The notes beneath the pieces were generated by a model. The model worked only from the letters and a program-made list of their open reading frames with translations, searched no databases and was not told where the DNA came from. The position numbers and the translations under genes were made by a program. From Thermoplasmata archaeon (GTDB lineage Archaea > Thermoplasmatota > Thermoplasmata > Thermoplasmatales > Thermoplasmataceae), in assembly GCA_021806345.1 (NCBI GenBank), contig JAJZXP010000385.1, forward strand, positions 1 to 6,133: a DNA stretch of 6,133 bases, written 5' to 3'. Positions 1 through 6,133 of this stretch are shown in pieces. Numbering within the stretch: position 1 is the first letter of the stretch; every line of letters begins with the position of its first letter.

Positions 1-2866
1 TGGTGAGTTTGGTGTATTCCAGTATCTCACATGTATTAGCGCCCTGCTTCTTCATCATCTCAAAAGTATTCTGACTAAGAAGCACATAGCTCCAGTCACA
101 GTTCATCCTTTCTTCCGGAGGCAGTTCGTTTATCTTATCCACCCAGTCAATAGCTGCGATCCTCTTGTTTTTGACATTCTGGTTGCTCATGTCTCTTTCA
201 GATTTGGTCTCTACAAGATAGATGTGATCACAAGCTCTAATCATAAAATCTGGATAATAGTGAGCAAGAAGACCGTCGTCCCTGACGTAAATGATATTTG
301 CAAAGTCATTGTAGTATTCGTTTATCTTCACAAATGCCTTGACTTTGGAATCAGAATCTATGAATTCGATGAAGTCCTTTTCAAACCCACCAGCGTGTGA
401 AGGATAGGCTATCTTTTCGTAAATGTTCTTTGCAGCTTTCAAGGCATAAGTCTCCCTAATTCTGATTTCAGGCACTTCAGAGAAGTACTTTTTCACGATC
501 TTTGCCTCGTTTGCTTTGAGATTTTTCATAGAATCATACACGGCCTGCGCTATATTACTCACAATGTGCTTGATCAAATTCTGCTGAGCCACAAGAAGCA
601 CGCGCCAGTTGTTGTCCACCAAGGGGTCAAACTCTTGTCTGAAAAGTTTGTGTCTGATGTAATCGTCCGTGAGCTTTGCAATAAGGGCAGAATTGACTTG
701 CATGACCGGGAAATCTCTTGATTTCCTACCTCTTGCATTGACATGGATCACTGATACTGCGTTCACCACTTTCTGGATAAATGAATTGTAGCTTTTTGCG
801 GTGAAAATGTCCGCTGTTACAGTATACTCGCCAAAAGTTGTCTTTACGGTCAACTCCTCGCTGTAAAAAGTATCACCTTTTCGCCCTACCAATGAACGTA
901 AGTCCTCAAGTTTCATCTGGAATGGTTCAAGTTTATCGATGGATAGGTCAGGAACCGCGAGTTCCTCCTCTTTGTCCTGTAATATGATGATCCAGAACAA
1001 GTCATAGTCTTTGTAATTCGGTTTGAGACCTACTTTAATCAAGTCTCCCACAATTTTGCTTTTCGTTGGTTCCTCTGTAATTTCACCGAATGCACCCATA
1101 AGTTGCTCTTCATAGTATTTGATAAAGTTCGGGTGCTCGATTACACTAAGAATGTCTATGTAAGTATCTGGGGCTTCTTTTTTATTCAGAAGATTTTCCC
1201 TGTTCTTTACCCTCATTTCTTCGTATATTGGTAATTCTCTCCACATAATCCTTAGGCCTCTTCCAATGAGCTGCTCCAGAAGAATCGATGAAGACGCAGA
1301 CCTAAGTGGCACAATTACACATATATTATTGACATCAAATCCTTCCCTTAGCATGAGTACAGAAACTATGACTTTCGGTTTCTCGTGCTTATCTATGTCG
1401 AAGAGTCTTTGTTCTATTTTTTTCCACTCTTCTTCGCTAACACTGCCTTTCCTGTCCGAGTGAATCTCAAGTACTTCTTCTTCTGAATAACCTTCCTGAA
1501 TAAGAAAGGAGATAACTAGAGGTACAACCCAATGGTCTTCGCAGACTATAAGCATCTTTGGAAACTTCGTTGAATCAAATACTGTAAATTCCATTTCAAG
1601 TAATCTTTGTTTAGCGATTCCTGCCCTTAGCATGACTTTTTGTCCCTCGGAAAGGCTGGTAACTCTCTTGCTTTCTCGCTCTGCTTTGAACTCTAGAGGC
1701 AAAGCGCCAAACTCCTTTCTCTTGTCTATTGCAACAGTTTTGACAAGTCCCTTCTTTATGGCATCTACTAGTTCAAAATTAGCTACTATATGGGGAAAGT
1801 AGTTTCTTACGTGGTTTTGTCCGCTTCCAGTCACTATGTATGGTGTGGCGGAGAAATCAACCTGTATGTACCGACTTTGCTTGTTTCCTGAAATCTTGTC
1901 AAGAGCTTCCTGCCATTTCTTCTCTACTGTCTCTTCGGACTTCTTCATTTCACCAAGGTGGTGGGCTTCATCATTGAATACGACGAGGTCCTGAAGGCTT
2001 GATAAGTAGTCGAGTTCCTGGCCTCTCATGTATTGATTGTCAAGTTCTTCCAAAGAATGTCCCCGTGAAGTGCCAGGAGTAATCGGAAGTAGTTCCTTTA
2101 CTGCTATATCGGGTCTATCCAGTGCAGAATCTGGCTCATCTTCTTCTTCATCCTCTGCCAAAAGATGCCAGTTTGTTATTGCTATAAGCCCTTCTCCGGT
2201 GACTTTTCGTCCTATCTCCTCTTTTTGTGAAACACTGCTCTGGATAAAGCCAAAAACCTCATCCTTGTGGACAGGTGGAATGAAGAGCTTCTGGAACCTC
2301 CAGAAATCGGACTGTTCAAAGTCCCTTGTCCCTTCCTCTCTTCGTTTTCCCAGATAAGCGTCCAGTAGTCTTTCATAGACAATAATACCGGGAGCCACTA
2401 AGAGGAAGTTCTTTGAGAACCTCTCACTCCCATTTTCATCGTATTTTGAGTTCAGGTATTGCCATATTAGTAGGGCATCCATAACCCAAGTCTTACCCGT
2501 ACCAGTTGCCATTTTTACGCAATATTTTGGATGTTCGTATTTATCCTGCTTGAGATCTGTCATGTCCATTTGCGACAGAAGTTCCGGGTAAATTTGAGCA
2601 TAGAGTTCACCAACGCTGGATATTTTCAGTATCTCGTGTACATAGATTACATTCAATATGGATTGCCATTGTCCATCATGAAAGTTTATGCTTCTCTCAT
2701 CTGCAAATACTCCATCAGGGTCCCAGAACTTAAGCAGTTCTTGGGTGATTGGTGCGACTTTCTCAAGAAATTCTCCAGATTTCCACAACTCTCTTGCCTG
2801 TTCAGTGATCCTCTTTGCAAGCTTTAGAGGGACATCTCTAGTTCCAGGAGACTTAACATTTACCAT
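1..2866 (-). CDS. res: Type III-like restriction endonuclease / DEAD-DEAH helicase (Res), 3' end outside the window
   Basis: Starts ATG at 2866 and stays open for 955 codons to the left edge, so the stop is not seen. Motifs read by translating the reverse complement: Walker A MATGTGKT at 119-126; helicase motif II DEAH at 299-302; motif III SAT at 339-341; MLIVCED at 438-444; motif V LREGFDVNN at 506-514; motif VI QLIGRGLR at 532-539; and a C-terminal PD-(D/E)xK nuclease site with PDF at 872-874 (D873) and ETK at 886-888 (E886, K888). Family role: with Mod it forms a complex that uses ATP to communicate along DNA between recognition sites and cuts unmodified DNA. Type III Res proteins are usually about 950-1000 residues and have the nuclease motif near the C-terminus, so little is likely missing. 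An acidic stretch (EDEEEDEPD, 238-246) sits between motifs I and II. Start is supported by GAGGT six bases upstream and by the one-base overlap with mod. A stand-alone helicase is unlikely given the nuclease motif and the partner. Confidence 0.93.
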   Translation of the reverse strand, partial: MVNVKSPGTRDVPLKLAKRITEQARELWKSGEFLEKVAPITQELLKFWDPDGVFADERSINFHDGQWQSILNVIYVHEILKISSVGELYAQIYPELLSQMDMTDLKQDKYEHPKYCVKMATGTGKTWVMDALLIWQYLNSKYDENGSERFSKNFLLVAPGIIVYERLLDAYLGKRREEGTRDFEQSDFWRFQKLFIPPVHKDEVFGFIQSSVSQKEEIGRKVTGEGLIAITNWHLLAEDEEEDEPDSALDRPDIAVKELLPITPGTSRGHSLEELDNQYMRGQELDYLSSLQDLVVFNDEAHHLGEMKKSEETVEKKWQEALDKISGNKQSRYIQVDFSATPYIVTGSGQNHVRNYFPHIVANFELVDAIKKGLVKTVAIDKRKEFGALPLEFKAERESKRVTSLSEGQKVMLRAGIAKQRLLEMEFTVFDSTKFPKMLIVCEDHWVVPLVISFLIQEGYSEEEVLEIHSDRKGSVSEEEWKKIEQRLFDIDKHEKPKVIVSVLMLREGFDVNNICVIVPLRSASSSILLEQLIGRGLRIMWRELPIYEEMRVKNRENLLNKKEAPDTYIDILSVIEHPNFIKYYEEQLMGAFGEITEEPTKSKIVGDLIKVGLKPNYKDYDLFWIIILQDKEEELAVPDLSIDKLEPFQMKLEDLRSLVGRKGDTFYSEELTVKTTFGEYTVTADIFTAKSYNSFIQKVVNAVSVIHVNARGRKSRDFPVMQVNSALIAKLTDDYIRHKLFRQEFDPLVDNNWRVLLVAQQNLIKHIVSNIAQAVYDSMKNLKANEAKIVKKYFSEVPEIRIRETYALKAAKNIYEKIAYPSHAGGFEKDFIEFIDSDSKVKAFVKINEYYNDFANIIYVRDDGLLAHYYPDFMIRACDHIYLVETKSERDMSNQNVKNKRIAAIDWVDKINELPPEERMNCDWSYVLLSQNTFEMMKKQGANTCEILEYTKLT

Positions 2867-2868
2867 CA
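2864..2868 (-). other. mod stop / res start overlap (TGATG)
   Basis: The TGA of mod (2868-2866) shares its last A with the ATG of res (2866-2864). Such overlaps normally go with co-transcription and translational coupling, here probably keeping Mod and Res in a fixed ratio and making Res synthesis depend on Mod synthesis. Confidence 0.85.
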
Positions 2869-4908
2869 GAATACCTCTTTAACAGTCACGCTCTCGAATC
2901 CGAATACATCAACCGCTTTCACGCAAACCTTTCTTTTTCCACTAACCTTGGGGACAAGGAGCTTTGTCTTCCGGTTCACCTTCAATGAATCTTCATGGTT
3001 TTCCCGGTAATCCTGCCATTTGCTCCTGAACATCTCTCCATCATATTCAGGGTCAATGCTCCAGTATTCTATGAGACTCAGAGGGTCTTCCTCTATGATC
3101 TTTTCGAGTTTGTCCTTATCTGATTTGTCAAGCGGGAATGCGTCTGGAGACAGAAGAACATAATTCTCAAGTTCAACTGTCAACTCTTCCTTATCGTCAT
3201 CCGTTGCTTTTTTGATAACTGGCTTAACAGTGAGGTATTGCAAAGAACTGAATCTTACTGTTCCTTCCTTTATCAGTTTCTCGTAGTCAGCCTTGTGTTT
3301 CAGCTTTTCCAACAAGTCTGGGGGAATTACAAGCACTTCGAGATTATCATCGTTTATTCCGTCTATGATTTTGCCAATGTCTGTTTCGAAGTTCCAACCC
3401 AGAACAACTATTTTGCTCCATCCTCCCATAAAGGAGGCTCTGAGTTCCTGAGCCTTCTTCAGAGTAGCATAACCAGTGATCTTTGTTGGAGAGTCAACAA
3501 ACACCAGAGTCTTACTCTGTTTAATGTAACCAAGGTTGGTGGGCGCACCTTCCTGCATCGGAAATGGAAGCGCACCGTATAGGTTGATCACAACATGAGC
3601 AAGGTCCCCTATACGTCTAAATTGCGATCTTTCAAACTGTTCTTTTTGATAATCACCGATGGATTGATACAGGAACGGTTTAGAATCTTGGTCGATAAGA
3701 CGTTTTCTGGAGATCATTATTGCAGGTTTACCAAGATCGCACATTATCCAATTTCGTCCGAGTTTCTCTGCCACTGCTCCCAATGTTCCAGATCCTGAGA
3801 AAAAATCGGCCACAATTGAATTCTCAGTGCTAGAAGCTTCAAAGATACGCGCAAGAAGCTTTTCACTTTTTTCAGTGTTGAATCCAAAGTTGAAACTATA
3901 TGCTGGAATGTCATCCCACAATGAAGTCACGATAGGATTTTCTGAAACAACTTTATACTCTGGTTTATTAGTTCGTTGATTTCTTCTCAATAGACCATTT
4001 TCTATGGCTTTAAATGCCCTATCCTTTCCCCACATCCAATGCCTACCTCTGGGCGGAGTCACTCCAAAAATTTCATAGTCCATCCCTGTACGTATACCAG
4101 GAGCGTCAAACGCATGCCATCGTTCCCCCAAACTTACATCGGTACGTGGTTGAAAGACCCTATGCTCTTCTGTTTTTGAGTAGAATAATATAGTGTCCAA
4201 TGCAACGTTAAGCCTCTTTGTAGTTTCATACTCTTGAACGTTCTTGCGAATTCTCTTACATTGTATTTCATTTCGGAAATTATCCCTTCCGAATAAGTCA
4301 TCCATAACTAACTTAACGTAATGAACAACGTGCCAATCTAAGTGAACATAGATTGATCCTTTGTTTGAGAGAAACTCCCTCATTAGGACAAGTCTTGGAA
4401 CAATCATTTCTAAGTACGATTTTGTCCCATCCTTCCATGTGTCAGAGTAGGCAAATTGTTCTATCACCGAAGGTTTTTGTTCAATGTCCACAGATGGTAG
4501 GTGTATTTTTGTCCTATAATCCGCCTTGCTGTCAAAGGGTGGATCAATATAAATTAAATCTATTTTGCCTCTCATTGACGGAAGTCCTGTTTCAGGATCG
4601 CCAGCTAGAAGTGCCTGCATGGCGAGAAGGTTATCGCCGTAAATTAACCTGTTAAGAAATTCATTGTTATCTTCCGTTTTGACATTTTGACCGGTGAATT
4701 TCGTTAATCCTCCAATAGCCTTGGTGGGAAGCACTAATTCATTCGTTTGAAGGGTGACTCTTTGTGATTTAGAAAGTCCGTCAAGGACCCTTTGTGCCTC
4801 TTTTTTACCTCTTTCGACGATTTTTGGCAATTCCTCGACTAACGATTTTCTTCGACCATTTCCACTTCTCTGAGTTGGATCTCCTTTTTCTTCCAACGTA
4901 TCAACCAT
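2866..4908 (-). CDS. mod: Type III-like adenine-specific DNA methyltransferase (Mod), beta class
   Basis: 680 residues from ATG 4908. A GTG at 4920 would add four residues, but GGTG at 4918-4915 is then the natural ribosome binding site, so I prefer the ATG. Seen, numbered from this ATG: a basic N-terminal region (NGRRKS at 17-22) before the fold; LIYGDNLLAM at 88-97; catalytic motif IV DPPF at 122-125; a variable stretch at about 210-330 where beta-class enzymes carry the target recognition domain; WDDI at 331-334; TEKSEKLL at 345-352 in place of the usual TQKPxxLL; and the AdoMet-binding motif I FFSGSGT at 369-375. Motif IV before motif I defines the beta class. Family role: N6-adenine methylation of an asymmetric site, which both protects host DNA and supplies sequence specificity to Res. 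The 280-residue C-terminal part ends in VKAVDVFGFESVTVKEVF, a tail type I recall from Mod proteins of this group. Stop overlaps the res start. No frameshift or missing catalytic motif is visible. The target site cannot be read from the sequence. Confidence 0.93.
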   Translation of the reverse strand: MVDTLEEKGDPTQRSGNGRRKSLVEELPKIVERGKKEAQRVLDGLSKSQRVTLQTNELVLPTKAIGGLTKFTGQNVKTEDNNEFLNRLIYGDNLLAMQALLAGDPETGLPSMRGKIDLIYIDPPFDSKADYRTKIHLPSVDIEQKPSVIEQFAYSDTWKDGTKSYLEMIVPRLVLMREFLSNKGSIYVHLDWHVVHYVKLVMDDLFGRDNFRNEIQCKRIRKNVQEYETTKRLNVALDTILFYSKTEEHRVFQPRTDVSLGERWHAFDAPGIRTGMDYEIFGVTPPRGRHWMWGKDRAFKAIENGLLRRNQRTNKPEYKVVSENPIVTSLWDDIPAYSFNFGFNTEKSEKLLARIFEASSTENSIVADFFSGSGTLGAVAEKLGRNWIMCDLGKPAIMISRKRLIDQDSKPFLYQSIGDYQKEQFERSQFRRIGDLAHVVINLYGALPFPMQEGAPTNLGYIKQSKTLVFVDSPTKITGYATLKKAQELRASFMGGWSKIVVLGWNFETDIGKIIDGINDDNLEVLVIPPDLLEKLKHKADYEKLIKEGTVRFSSLQYLTVKPVIKKATDDDKEELTVELENYVLLSPDAFPLDKSDKDKLEKIIEEDPLSLIEYWSIDPEYDGEMFRSKWQDYRENHEDSLKVNRKTKLLVPKVSGKRKVCVKAVDVFGFESVTVKEVF
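2873..2877 (-). promoter_or_regulatory. Ribosome binding site of res, inside the mod coding end
   Basis: GAGGT on the minus strand, six bases before ATG 2866, formed by the last Lys-Glu-Val codons of mod. It is the strongest Shine-Dalgarno match of the three genes and sets the res start. Confidence 0.7.
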
Positions 4909-4914
4909 GTAAAA

Positions 4915-4920
4915 CACCAC
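4915..4920 (-). promoter_or_regulatory. Ribosome binding site deciding the mod start
   Basis: GTGGTG contains GGTG (4918-4915), six bases before ATG 4908. The same bases include the alternative GTG start at 4920, which has no Shine-Dalgarno-like sequence ahead of it (upstream bases are TTATCATTCAATGTC). The site therefore argues for the ATG. Confidence 0.55.
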
Positions 4921-4935
4921 GACATTGAATGATAA

Positions 4936-6021
4936 CTAAAGCCTCTTTTTCAATTCAGTAGAAACAATCGACGCATCAGATAATAAAATTTGCGATTCCA
5001 TTGTGTAGTACCGACCAATCTTTTTCTTGATCAGCGTGACCAGACCTAAGTTCTGCAGGTAGTTAACACTCTGAAAGAAAGTGGACTTGCTCATTCCCTT
5101 AACCAGGAAGCTGTTGACATTCGTCACCTCGGCATAGGCCTTGTTCGTGTCCTGATTCTTGATCAATGACGCCAGAATCAATAAATCCCTGTCTCCAAGA
5201 TTCCTTAGAGTTTCTCCCTCCACCTCTACATAAGCCTGCCTCAATGCTGATATGACTGCCTCATCGGTCCATTTGTTAACCCTTCCAAGTATCTCCAGTG
5301 CTTTGATGCCAATCCTGGCATCGCTCCTGTATTCCCTGACAAGCATGGCGGACAAGAGGCCTATAGCAACCTTGTCAAATTTGTTAAGACCTTCTTCTGC
5401 CCTCATTTTCAGTATCTCGCGGATCTCATCTGCGTTGTATTCATGGAAAACAATATGGTCAGGCTGCAGAGAGCTCTTCACGCTCTCGTCGTTCATGTCC
5501 TTGTACCAGTAGACTTTCTGGGTCAGTAGGATAAGGTTAGCCTTTGTATGCCTCGTTATGTGGTAGAGGACATCATAGTCCTGGAGAAAATCAACTTCGT
5601 CCAGTATAACAATTGACTTTCCAGACAGCAACGAGTCAAATTTGTTCTTTACTTCATCGATGTCATGACCTCTGCTGGATATCCTTGTCAGATACCTGTA
5701 TATCTTTATGGATGTGGGGTTCTCCCTCACGTTTATGTAGTAATATGGCACTGATTTGCTCTCTTTCAGGGCCTTTGCCATGATCAAAGCACTTAGTGTT
5801 TTGCCGGAACCCTTTGATCCATAGATGATTATGTGCCTGGGAAGGTTTAGGTTCACGTAGTCTGCAAGGTCATTGGTAACCTTGTCAAGCTCCTTTCTTA
5901 TGAGGATGCGATTTGGCTTGAAATCCATGTCGAACAGCTGTGCATTCTTTATGTTGCTGGTTTCCTTTGCCCTCTGCTTGACCTTGCTGTCAAAGAACGC
6001 ATATGGATCTTTCAGAGCCAT
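4936..6021 (-). CDS. cdc6: Orc1/Cdc6-family AAA+ ATPase (replication-initiator-like), first gene of the restriction operon
   Basis: 361-residue protein, ATG start and TAG stop. Seen: an N-terminal linker (FKPNRILIRKELDKV, 34-48) in the place of the family's YxPxxxxxRExEL segment; Walker A GSKGSGKT at 68-75; Walker B IVILDEVD at 137-144; a sensor 1 region LLTQK at 165-169; the family block ESVKSSL...IVFHEYNADEIREIL at 179-204; sensor 2 SDARIGIKALE at 233-243 with R236; and a C-terminal winged helix from about 270 to 350 ending LGLVTLIKKKIGRYY. Known family role: ATP-dependent binding of origin DNA and loading of the MCM helicase. Length is slightly below the usual 380-410. The sensor 1 SN/TN pair is replaced by TQ, and the stretch between Walker A and B seems compact, so this looks like a divergent paralogue rather than the main chromosomal initiator. 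Start supported by GTGATC just upstream. It lies 27 bases ahead of mod on the same strand, which suggests a role tied to restriction-modification or to an element carrying it (inference). Confidence 0.88.
   Translation of the reverse strand: MALKDPYAFFDSKVKQRAKETSNIKNAQLFDMDFKPNRILIRKELDKVTNDLADYVNLNLPRHIIIYGSKGSGKTLSALIMAKALKESKSVPYYYINVRENPTSIKIYRYLTRISSRGHDIDEVKNKFDSLLSGKSIVILDEVDFLQDYDVLYHITRHTKANLILLTQKVYWYKDMNDESVKSSLQPDHIVFHEYNADEIREILKMRAEEGLNKFDKVAIGLLSAMLVREYRSDARIGIKALEILGRVNKWTDEAVISALRQAYVEVEGETLRNLGDRDLLILASLIKNQDTNKAYAEVTNVNSFLVKGMSKSTFFQSVNYLQNLGLVTLIKKKIGRYYTMESQILLSDASIVSTELKKRL
4981..4995 (-). promoter_or_regulatory. Possible internal promoter ahead of mod
   Basis: Within the 3' end of the Orc1/Cdc6-like gene the minus strand reads TCGCAAA followed by TTTTATTA (4988-4981). 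The order and spacing resemble the operon promoter. A start near 4957 would leave about 50 untranslated bases before ATG 4908 and allow mod-res expression without the first gene. The bases also encode protein, and AT-rich matches occur by chance, so support is weak. Confidence 0.25.
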
Positions 6022-6023
6022 GC

Positions 6024-6029
6024 GATCAC
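6024..6029 (-). promoter_or_regulatory. Ribosome binding site of the Orc1/Cdc6-like gene
   Basis: GTGATC on the minus strand pairs with the usual archaeal 16S 3' end (AUCACCUCC). Its GT step lies six bases ahead of ATG 6021, the same register as the sites of the two downstream genes. This supports ATG 6021 as the start. Confidence 0.55.
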
Positions 6030-6056
6030 TGCACTTTTACGATTCACTGGTAAGAT

Positions 6057-6070
6057 TATTAAAAGTTCCG
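6057..6070 (-). promoter_or_regulatory. Archaeal promoter (BRE + TATA-like box) for the operon
   Basis: On the minus strand CGGAAC (6070-6065) is followed directly by TTTTAATA (6064-6057), a good match to an archaeal BRE plus TATA box. Archaeal transcription usually begins about 25 bases past the box centre, here near the purines at 6034-6038, giving a leader of roughly 13-17 bases before ATG 6021. No better candidate is seen in the 112-base upstream region. It would drive all three genes. Confidence 0.6.
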
Positions 6071-6133
6071 AACGAGTCGAATCATTGAGTGTCGTAGAAC
6101 AGTCGTTTTCAGTTCAGAAGAGAGAGTGTCAGA

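Follow-up and report, generated by a model that had tools for sequence, protein, structure and literature searches.

A Cdc6 gene together with restriction-modification (R-M) genes has already been reported on plasmid pPO1 of Picrophilus oshimae (NC_016049), for which Cdc6 was proposed as the replication initiator, with an origin upstream of it (PMC3177234). On pPO1, cdc6 is followed by a DNA methyltransferase gene that overlaps it by 8 nucleotides (nt), a serine recombinase gene lies upstream on the circle, and a large ATPase is encoded as well. Here, we compare with this plasmid a stretch of 6,133 nt from a Thermoplasmata archaeon (assembly GCA_021806345.1, contig JAJZXP010000385.1; hereafter the window, meaning the whole stretch), in which a gene for a divergent Orc1/Cdc6-type ATPase (orc) precedes the modification and restriction genes of a type III-type system (mod and res; Table 1). 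Judging from the sequences of its relatives, the window is very probably a piece of an integrative plasmid of Thermoplasmatales, in which orc would encode the element's own replication initiator and mod-res would be one of several interchangeable R-M cassettes.

The window's family differs from pPO1 in several respects. pPO1 is a free plasmid of 7.6 kb whose Orc, the best plasmid match to the window protein (43.7%), is 42–44% identical, its methyltransferase is of type II-type and is accompanied by a REase_II-like gene, and its six annotated genes include neither a tyrosine integrase nor ParA. Integrated elements of thaumarchaea with tyrosine integrases likewise carry, in some cases, a Cdc6/Orc1 homologue and, in others, R-M genes, but a fixed R-M slot behind the initiator is not described in the part of that report available to us (PMC6563490). 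Genomic islands of Cuniculiplasma and of the archaeon Mia14 are similar in containing tRNAs, R-M and toxin-antitoxin genes (PMC5155288, PMC5498576), and a Pin homologue, ParA and a XerD integrase of the Mia14 island were considered attributable to integrated mobile elements (PMC5498576); neither main text contains the words Cdc6 or Orc1. Thermoplasmatales also belong to the groups in which 40–50% of atypical gene clusters adjoin tRNA genes, according to the accessible portion of PMC2718499. Among the matches listed in the open-licence literature, as judged from titles and the starts of abstracts, no description of an initiator-linked R-M slot in Thermoplasmatales was found, and a prior description elsewhere is possible.

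The initial annotation had described three minus-strand genes separated by a 27-base gap and joined by a one-base overlap, and the ORF (open reading frame) coordinates bear this out: the gap is counted from an in-frame ATG of mod at position 4908, and base 2866 is the single base common to mod and res. The same order of orc, mod and res recurs in four other loci (L003, L008, L057 and L067b), with Mod and Res proteins 70–89% identical to those of the window, and thus the three-gene arrangement is not due to chance. An orc that normally stands alone, with mod-res beside it in this genome only, would have spoken against any link; this was not what the relatives showed. Elsewhere, other R-M kinds, a ParE toxin gene or no recognised R-M gene follow orc.

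Across the upstream stretch and orc, the DNA of the window is 95% identical to that of loci L001, L059 and L060, and the match covers all but the final two bases of the orc stop codon. Past this stop, L001 continues with a type IIG enzyme, L059 with an ORF of 143 amino acids (aa) and no recognised R-M gene, and L060 runs to the end of its contig. The window Orc is 99% identical to the Orc preceding the type IIG enzyme in L001. Generally, where an intact orc is followed by another R-M kind, the match to the window ends at 1170–1199, on a scale on which the orc stop codon ends at 1198, and loci with the R-M family of the window match far past the orc stop (L003, L008, L057) or throughout (L067b). 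In nine pairs of other loci, the 245 nt behind orc are 51–55% identical when the R-M kinds differ and 67–87% identical when they are alike; in L065 and L009, the first 245 nt of the IIG cassettes are 87% alike and the orc genes 77% identical. The Res protein of the window shares 81% identity with that of L008, where orc shares 75%, and 78% with that of L003, where orc shares 81%. The R-M kind was followed along a tree of 15 orc genes, drawn from 20 loci whose R-M slot had been typed; pPO1 and the loci with a broken or partial orc (L067a, L072, L073, L075) were omitted. The R-M kind changes 10 times on this 15-tip tree, in which 5 of the 12 inner branches are poorly supported, as compared to 6–10 changes in 300 shuffles. 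Thus, the R-M kind shows no sign of following the orc tree.

The contents of the slot behind orc were determined for loci that had been retrieved by orc and not by R-M genes, the window itself excepted. Altogether 34 orc places were counted, fragments included, of which 26 were evaluable by having at least 1 kb of contig behind orc; labels were assigned by hand. Left out of the 34 were the planctomycete loci L014–L016 and L092, the distant matches L051–L055 and L098, small orc fragments at G006:C170, in L072 (360–593) and on contig C51 of G419 (18537–18827), and weaker matches representing other Orc1 genes. An R-M system or its remnant occupies 22 of the 26 evaluable slots, a ParE toxin gene occupies one, and none was found in three. 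Type III-type systems fill 12 slots and fall into four families, the first comprising the window, L003, L008, L057 and L067b, the second L004, the third L012, L058 and L062, and the fourth L067a, L072 and L073. Five slots hold type IIG enzymes (L001, L002, L065, L075 and, in broken form, L009), and type II-type methyltransferases are present in pPO1, L011 and L013; of these, only pPO1 was seen to have a REase_II-like gene, a partner in L013 not having been searched for. L007 and L064 retain a broken piece of a methyltransferase, recognised by a single tblastn hit on a putative DNA methylase (42.6%) and by no family match. The latter two loci share 99.96% identity across 2.6 kb; if they are treated as one, the count becomes 21 of 25, and if the window is omitted as well, 20 of 24. 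In L061, the slot contains the ParE toxin gene (PF05016, 35.3 bits), opposite which lies a small ORF. The elements are related by descent, and therefore 26 loci do not equal 26 independent events. In 17 of 19 cases with an open first R-M gene, the start of this gene lies in the range from 41 nt before to 57 nt after the orc stop, as measured from mechanical ORF starts. In L058, a premature stop interrupts the orc frame. We also considered exclusion between unlike R-M kinds within one genome, an idea that was dropped: none of eight pairs shares a kind, but shuffled labels give zero in 28.9% of draws.

Some of the IIG cassettes are larger. In L002 (9088–17082), the cassette comprises an Eco57I-type enzyme, an HTH-IrrE protein like PADLOC RmrA, a DUF4411 protein and a PLD-SNF2 helicase; L065 (9528–18044) carries its first two genes at 66–69% identity and two further genes in like order, and in L075 (2382–8568) an HKD-SNF2 protein is encoded in addition to the IIG enzyme.

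When the ORFs of the window and of 33 relative loci were compared, a common backbone preceding orc was seen, in the order 429-aa protein, several small proteins, 594-aa AAA ATPase, ParA (PF13614, 203.7 bits), 91-aa protein, 201-aa serine resolvase (PF00239, 154.5 bits) and orc. The 429-aa protein is an integrase (PF00589, 33.9 bits; cut-off 27.1). ParA is present in 22 and the serine resolvase in 19 of the 33 loci, many of whose contigs are cut by ends. Of 11 regions, some of which were assembled from adjoining stretches, 10 contain a tRNA-Ala gene; in five loci, it is spaced 48–49 nt from the integrase ORF. In seven of ten regions, a copy of the tRNA-Ala 3' end of 19–24 nt, or 80 nt in one, lies past the first R-M genes; the remaining three regions end soon after orc or had no further stretch taken. 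Integrase, tRNA target and repeated tRNA end thus occur together in relatives such as L012, L013 and L057, in which both ends were found and the element spans 16–18 kb. The element in G082 spans 32 kb and carries two orc copies. The window is tied to such elements by its 95% DNA identity over 1.2 kb to L001, L059 and L060, since L059 and L060 carry the backbone. L059 has a tRNA-Ala gene and a piece of the integrase; no tRNA repeat was found in the stretch covered. From these similarities we infer that the window itself lies in an element of this type. Two relatives contain fused frames: in L070 (184–1446), an open frame joins part of the integrase to the C-terminal part of orc, and in L072 (8086–9483), part of the AAA ATPase is joined to the C-terminal part of orc, the fused tail being followed by type III-type mod and res genes. 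Both fusions perhaps arose by deletion between tandem elements.

The gene identities of the initial annotation, i.e. an initiator-type ATPase, Mod and Res, were upheld by matches to TIGR02928, PF01555, ResIII and PADLOC models, those to TIGR02928 and the nuclease domain RE_endonuc being under cut-off. A profile of 40 Orc sequences matches Cdc6/Orc1-1 of Sulfolobus (2qby_A) with an E-value of 1.9e-35 over positions 32–356. The AlphaFold model of the orc product has a mean predicted local distance difference test score (pLDDT) of 89.2 and a winged helix at the C terminus, and its best Foldseek match is Aeropyrum ORC1 bound to DNA (2v1u; E 1.5e-17, template modelling score 0.69). Thus, the full-length profile as well as the fold, an AAA+ domain plus winged helix, place the protein among Orc1/Cdc6 proteins. 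It contains the motif GSKGSGKT, which we take to be Walker A; the first G and GSGKT of this motif as well as D234 and R236 are invariant in the alignment of 40 sequences. Full-length element orc copies in 18 genomes score 83–107 bits against TIGR02928, as compared to 360–451 bits for the best chromosomal Orc1 in 17 genomes. A second Orc1 over the TIGR02928 cut-off is present in 17 of the 18 host genomes, and the exception, G001, may be incomplete. The element orc is thus an extra copy. A weak match to mad8 (20.1 bits) covers part of orc, and no other MADS protein was among the matches listed (25 of 49 families for Mod).

If orc is the initiator, its product would bind the conserved stretch just upstream of the gene and recruit the host replication machinery. 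The 245 nt upstream of orc are 71–86% identical in nine pairs of other loci in gapped alignments (shuffled sequences 53–54%); fourfold codon sites of the same pairs show 30–53% identity in ungapped comparison, so that the two scales differ. Only short words and no convincing iterons were found when this stretch was searched for origin repeats in three loci. The mod-res pair would be one interchangeable cassette in a slot that starts at the orc stop codon. This cassette probably retains the element, as loss of the element would leave a restriction enzyme acting on unprotected DNA, and probably also excludes competing elements and viruses. We tentatively go one step further, at a confidence clearly short of even: the orc stop might mark a dedicated slot in which the initiator is coupled to an exchangeable addiction or exclusion module, be it any R-M or toxin-antitoxin system, whose dose would follow replication of the element, and the elements might diversify by exchanging, at fixed positions, entire R-M cassettes as well as the recognition domains of Mod.

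Alternatively, it may simply be that no further backbone gene separates orc from the attachment site, so that captured cargo lands behind orc and the adjacency of R-M genes has no function. Such passive capture has a substantial chance of being correct, if one not quite reaching even, and it is compatible with orc as initiator: it disputes only the reason for the placement of the R-M genes, and its probability overlaps with that of the integrative plasmid as a whole. Integrated elements of archaea are known to carry R-M genes as cargo, as stated in the accessible part of PMC6563490, and broken genes and deletions are observed in the loci. Other cargo occurs further downstream; in L057 (15474–17833), proteins of DndB-like and of Schlafen AlbA_2 type are among those encoded past the R-M genes. 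Against passive capture stand the preponderance of R-M systems or remnants in the evaluable slots, with ParE in one more, although shared descent explains part of it, the start of nearly all open first genes less than 60 nt from the orc stop, and the retrieval of the loci by orc rather than by R-M genes.

Several observations weigh against an integrative plasmid with an R-M slot behind its initiator. First, the orc product scores 108.3 bits (E 3.7e-31) against TIGR02928 and misses the curated cut-off of 181.3 bits; in a control run, matches occurred in 12 of 14 named genomes, bacteria included, and three were over the cut-off. A score under the cut-off is thus weak evidence when taken alone. 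Second, the window, at 6.1 kb, contains no integrase, ParA, resolvase or attachment repeat that we could see. Third, the upstream stretch has a local AT tract, but its overall A+T content of 0.59–0.69 (0.85 in pPO1) is hardly above that of the window (~0.58). Fourth, no R-M gene was found behind orc in L059, L069 and L071 when these loci were compared with R-M proteins encoded elsewhere in the set and a few ORFs of L059 and L069 were searched in Pfam, an approach by which an unrelated R-M system could be missed. In addition, the gap between orc and the R-M genes is ~240 nt in L075 and ~0.9 kb, with a small ORF in between, in L067a. Finally, for pPO1 no transcript start was found for cdc6, polycistronic RNA was not seen, and the methyltransferase transcript begins inside cdc6 (PMC3177234). 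Therefore, a common orc-R-M operon, as assumed at the outset, is doubtful. Its single visible promoter likewise went unconfirmed: a sigma-70 scan of 4800–6133, with a model unsuited to archaea, returned 1 site versus 2.4 expected.

The initial annotation had left three roles open for the ATPase, of which the initiator of a mobile element carrying the restriction genes is the one favoured by the relatives. A regulatory role is improbable. Orc would then mainly control the downstream R-M genes, comparable to the non-initiator Orc1-2, presumably of Sulfolobus. Regulation of DNA-damage genes by Orc1-2 is described in the available part of PMC9738581. The C-terminal winged helix, the constant adjacency of orc to R-M genes and the internal transcript start in pPO1 would fit this role, but the conserved non-coding DNA lies upstream of orc, and the DNA behind it is unrelated when R-M kinds differ. 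The pPO1 start also suggested a conserved promoter inside orc, which we rejected since inspection by eye revealed no matching TATA-like sequence at that position in the window's relatives and no conserved promoter-like sequence in the 3' part of orc. Lastly, that Orc senses or loads DNA for Res as the third subunit of a new three-gene type III system, for which the recurrence of the order with the window's Mod-Res family in five loci, window included, and the tight gene spacing could be cited, is very improbable and was rejected, because orc is not co-inherited with one R-M kind, as seen from the near-identical Orc preceding a type IIG enzyme or no recognised R-M gene and from the tree, and because Mod and Res have relatives on bacterial plasmids, two of which, when examined, had no Orc neighbour.

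What looked like a three-gene defence system thus appears as a mobile element whose replication gene constantly neighbours changing R-M systems. This points to a route by which R-M systems of unrelated kinds may pass between acidophilic archaea, and the loci offer natural pairs for asking whether R-M systems are kept for addiction or for exclusion. Moreover, the elements supply candidate initiators and origins for vectors in Thermoplasmatales; genetic tools were lacking for Picrophilus, according to the pPO1 study (PMC3177234).

As to the cassette of the window, Mod matches PF01555 (108.6 bits) and PADLOC MTase_III (244 bits), which identifies it as a type III Mod, and its sequence matches in the PDB include Mbo45V and EcoP15I Mod. 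The motifs DPPF and FSGSG are, by our assumption, methyltransferase motifs. Res adjoins mod and matches ResIII (56.4 bits, over its cut-off) and PADLOC REase_III (79 bits). The order of mod and res, their domains, with the putative Res nuclease under its cut-off, and the variable middle of Mod agree with type III R-M systems of the EcoP15I kind. Res, by contrast, has no sequence match among solved structures and reaches 206.8 bits against NCBIfam BPTD_3080, below the cut-off of 800. It lacks ~20 terminal residues at the window edge, four of its relatives being 974–975 aa long. Residues 201–360 of Mod are 20–37% identical to the L057 Mod, as compared to 75–100% in other blocks of 40 residues, and the DNA match between the window and L057 is broken here as well. 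A variable middle between conserved blocks is the pattern expected of an exchanged recognition domain, and this part of Mod is, by its sequence pattern, probably the target-recognition domain. On bacterial plasmids, the best 12 of 604 Mod records are 46–50% identical, two of them reaching 56–57% over ~80% of Mod, and the best 12 of 72 Res records are 44–46% identical. No Orc gene stands beside the related mod-res pair on the two plasmids examined, from Acetobacter and Sphingomonas. On the Sphingomonas plasmid (L096, 3910–9470), this pair directly follows a recombinase gene and is near a replication initiator gene and parA.

Table 1. Features of the window, with positions counted from its first base.
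Feature	Position	Strand	Description
orc	4936..6021	minus	361 aa; AAA+ ATPase of divergent Orc1/Cdc6 type, winged helix at the C terminus; probably initiates replication of an integrative plasmid
mod	2866..4920	minus	684 aa from GTG; type III-type DNA methyltransferase
res	2..2866	minus	955 aa, open at window edge; type III-type restriction subunit, helicase and putative C-terminal nuclease
Conserved upstream non-coding stretch, part in window	6022..6133	minus	candidate replication origin and putative promoter region
Cassette boundary	4921..4935	minus	DNA similarity to elements with other R-M kinds breaks off at the orc stop or shortly ahead of it
Variable middle of Mod, residues 201–360	3841..4320	minus	probable target-recognition domain
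Putative C-terminal nuclease domain of Res (RE_endonuc), residues 813–900	167..430	minus	20.0 bits, below the Pfam cut-off of 23.4

Relatives of orc are concentrated in Thermoplasmatales. A protein search, in which the 7998 candidates sharing most words were scored, gave at least 91 matches, and a scan of genome contigs gave at least 16 loci, those listed comprising ten of Thermoplasmata/Thermoplasmatales, one of the uncultured archaeon ASS_A1, one of Micrarchaeota, one of Methanolliviera and three of planctomycetes. Whole-genome searches, run with differing E-value limits, matched 18 of 117 genomes of the order. At the level of the class, with up to five candidates scored per genome, 14 of 400 genomes matched, each of them one of the order's 18. 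The class to which the Micrarchaeota genome belongs gave 7 of 246, two of them strong matches, and the phylum that includes Methanolliviera gave 2 of 392. Since relatives outside the order are so few, the slot rule was tested almost only in Thermoplasmatales, one genome of the Micrarchaeota class and pPO1. Screening of viral contigs and phage records with orc yielded no relatives, and a viral origin was rejected on this ground.

In the Micrarchaeota metagenome-assembled genome (MAG; L006, L063), orc is identical to that of G251, a genome matched in the search of the order of G003, which reflects either recent transfer or a binning error. R-M genes were absent from the six ORFs neighbouring planctomycete Orc genes that were checked in Pfam. 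These genes lie on planctomycete MAG contigs (L014, 8001–9017; L015, 8001–8999; L016, 389–1429) and encode Orc1/Cdc6-like proteins ~30% identical to the window Orc, which is unexpected in bacteria.

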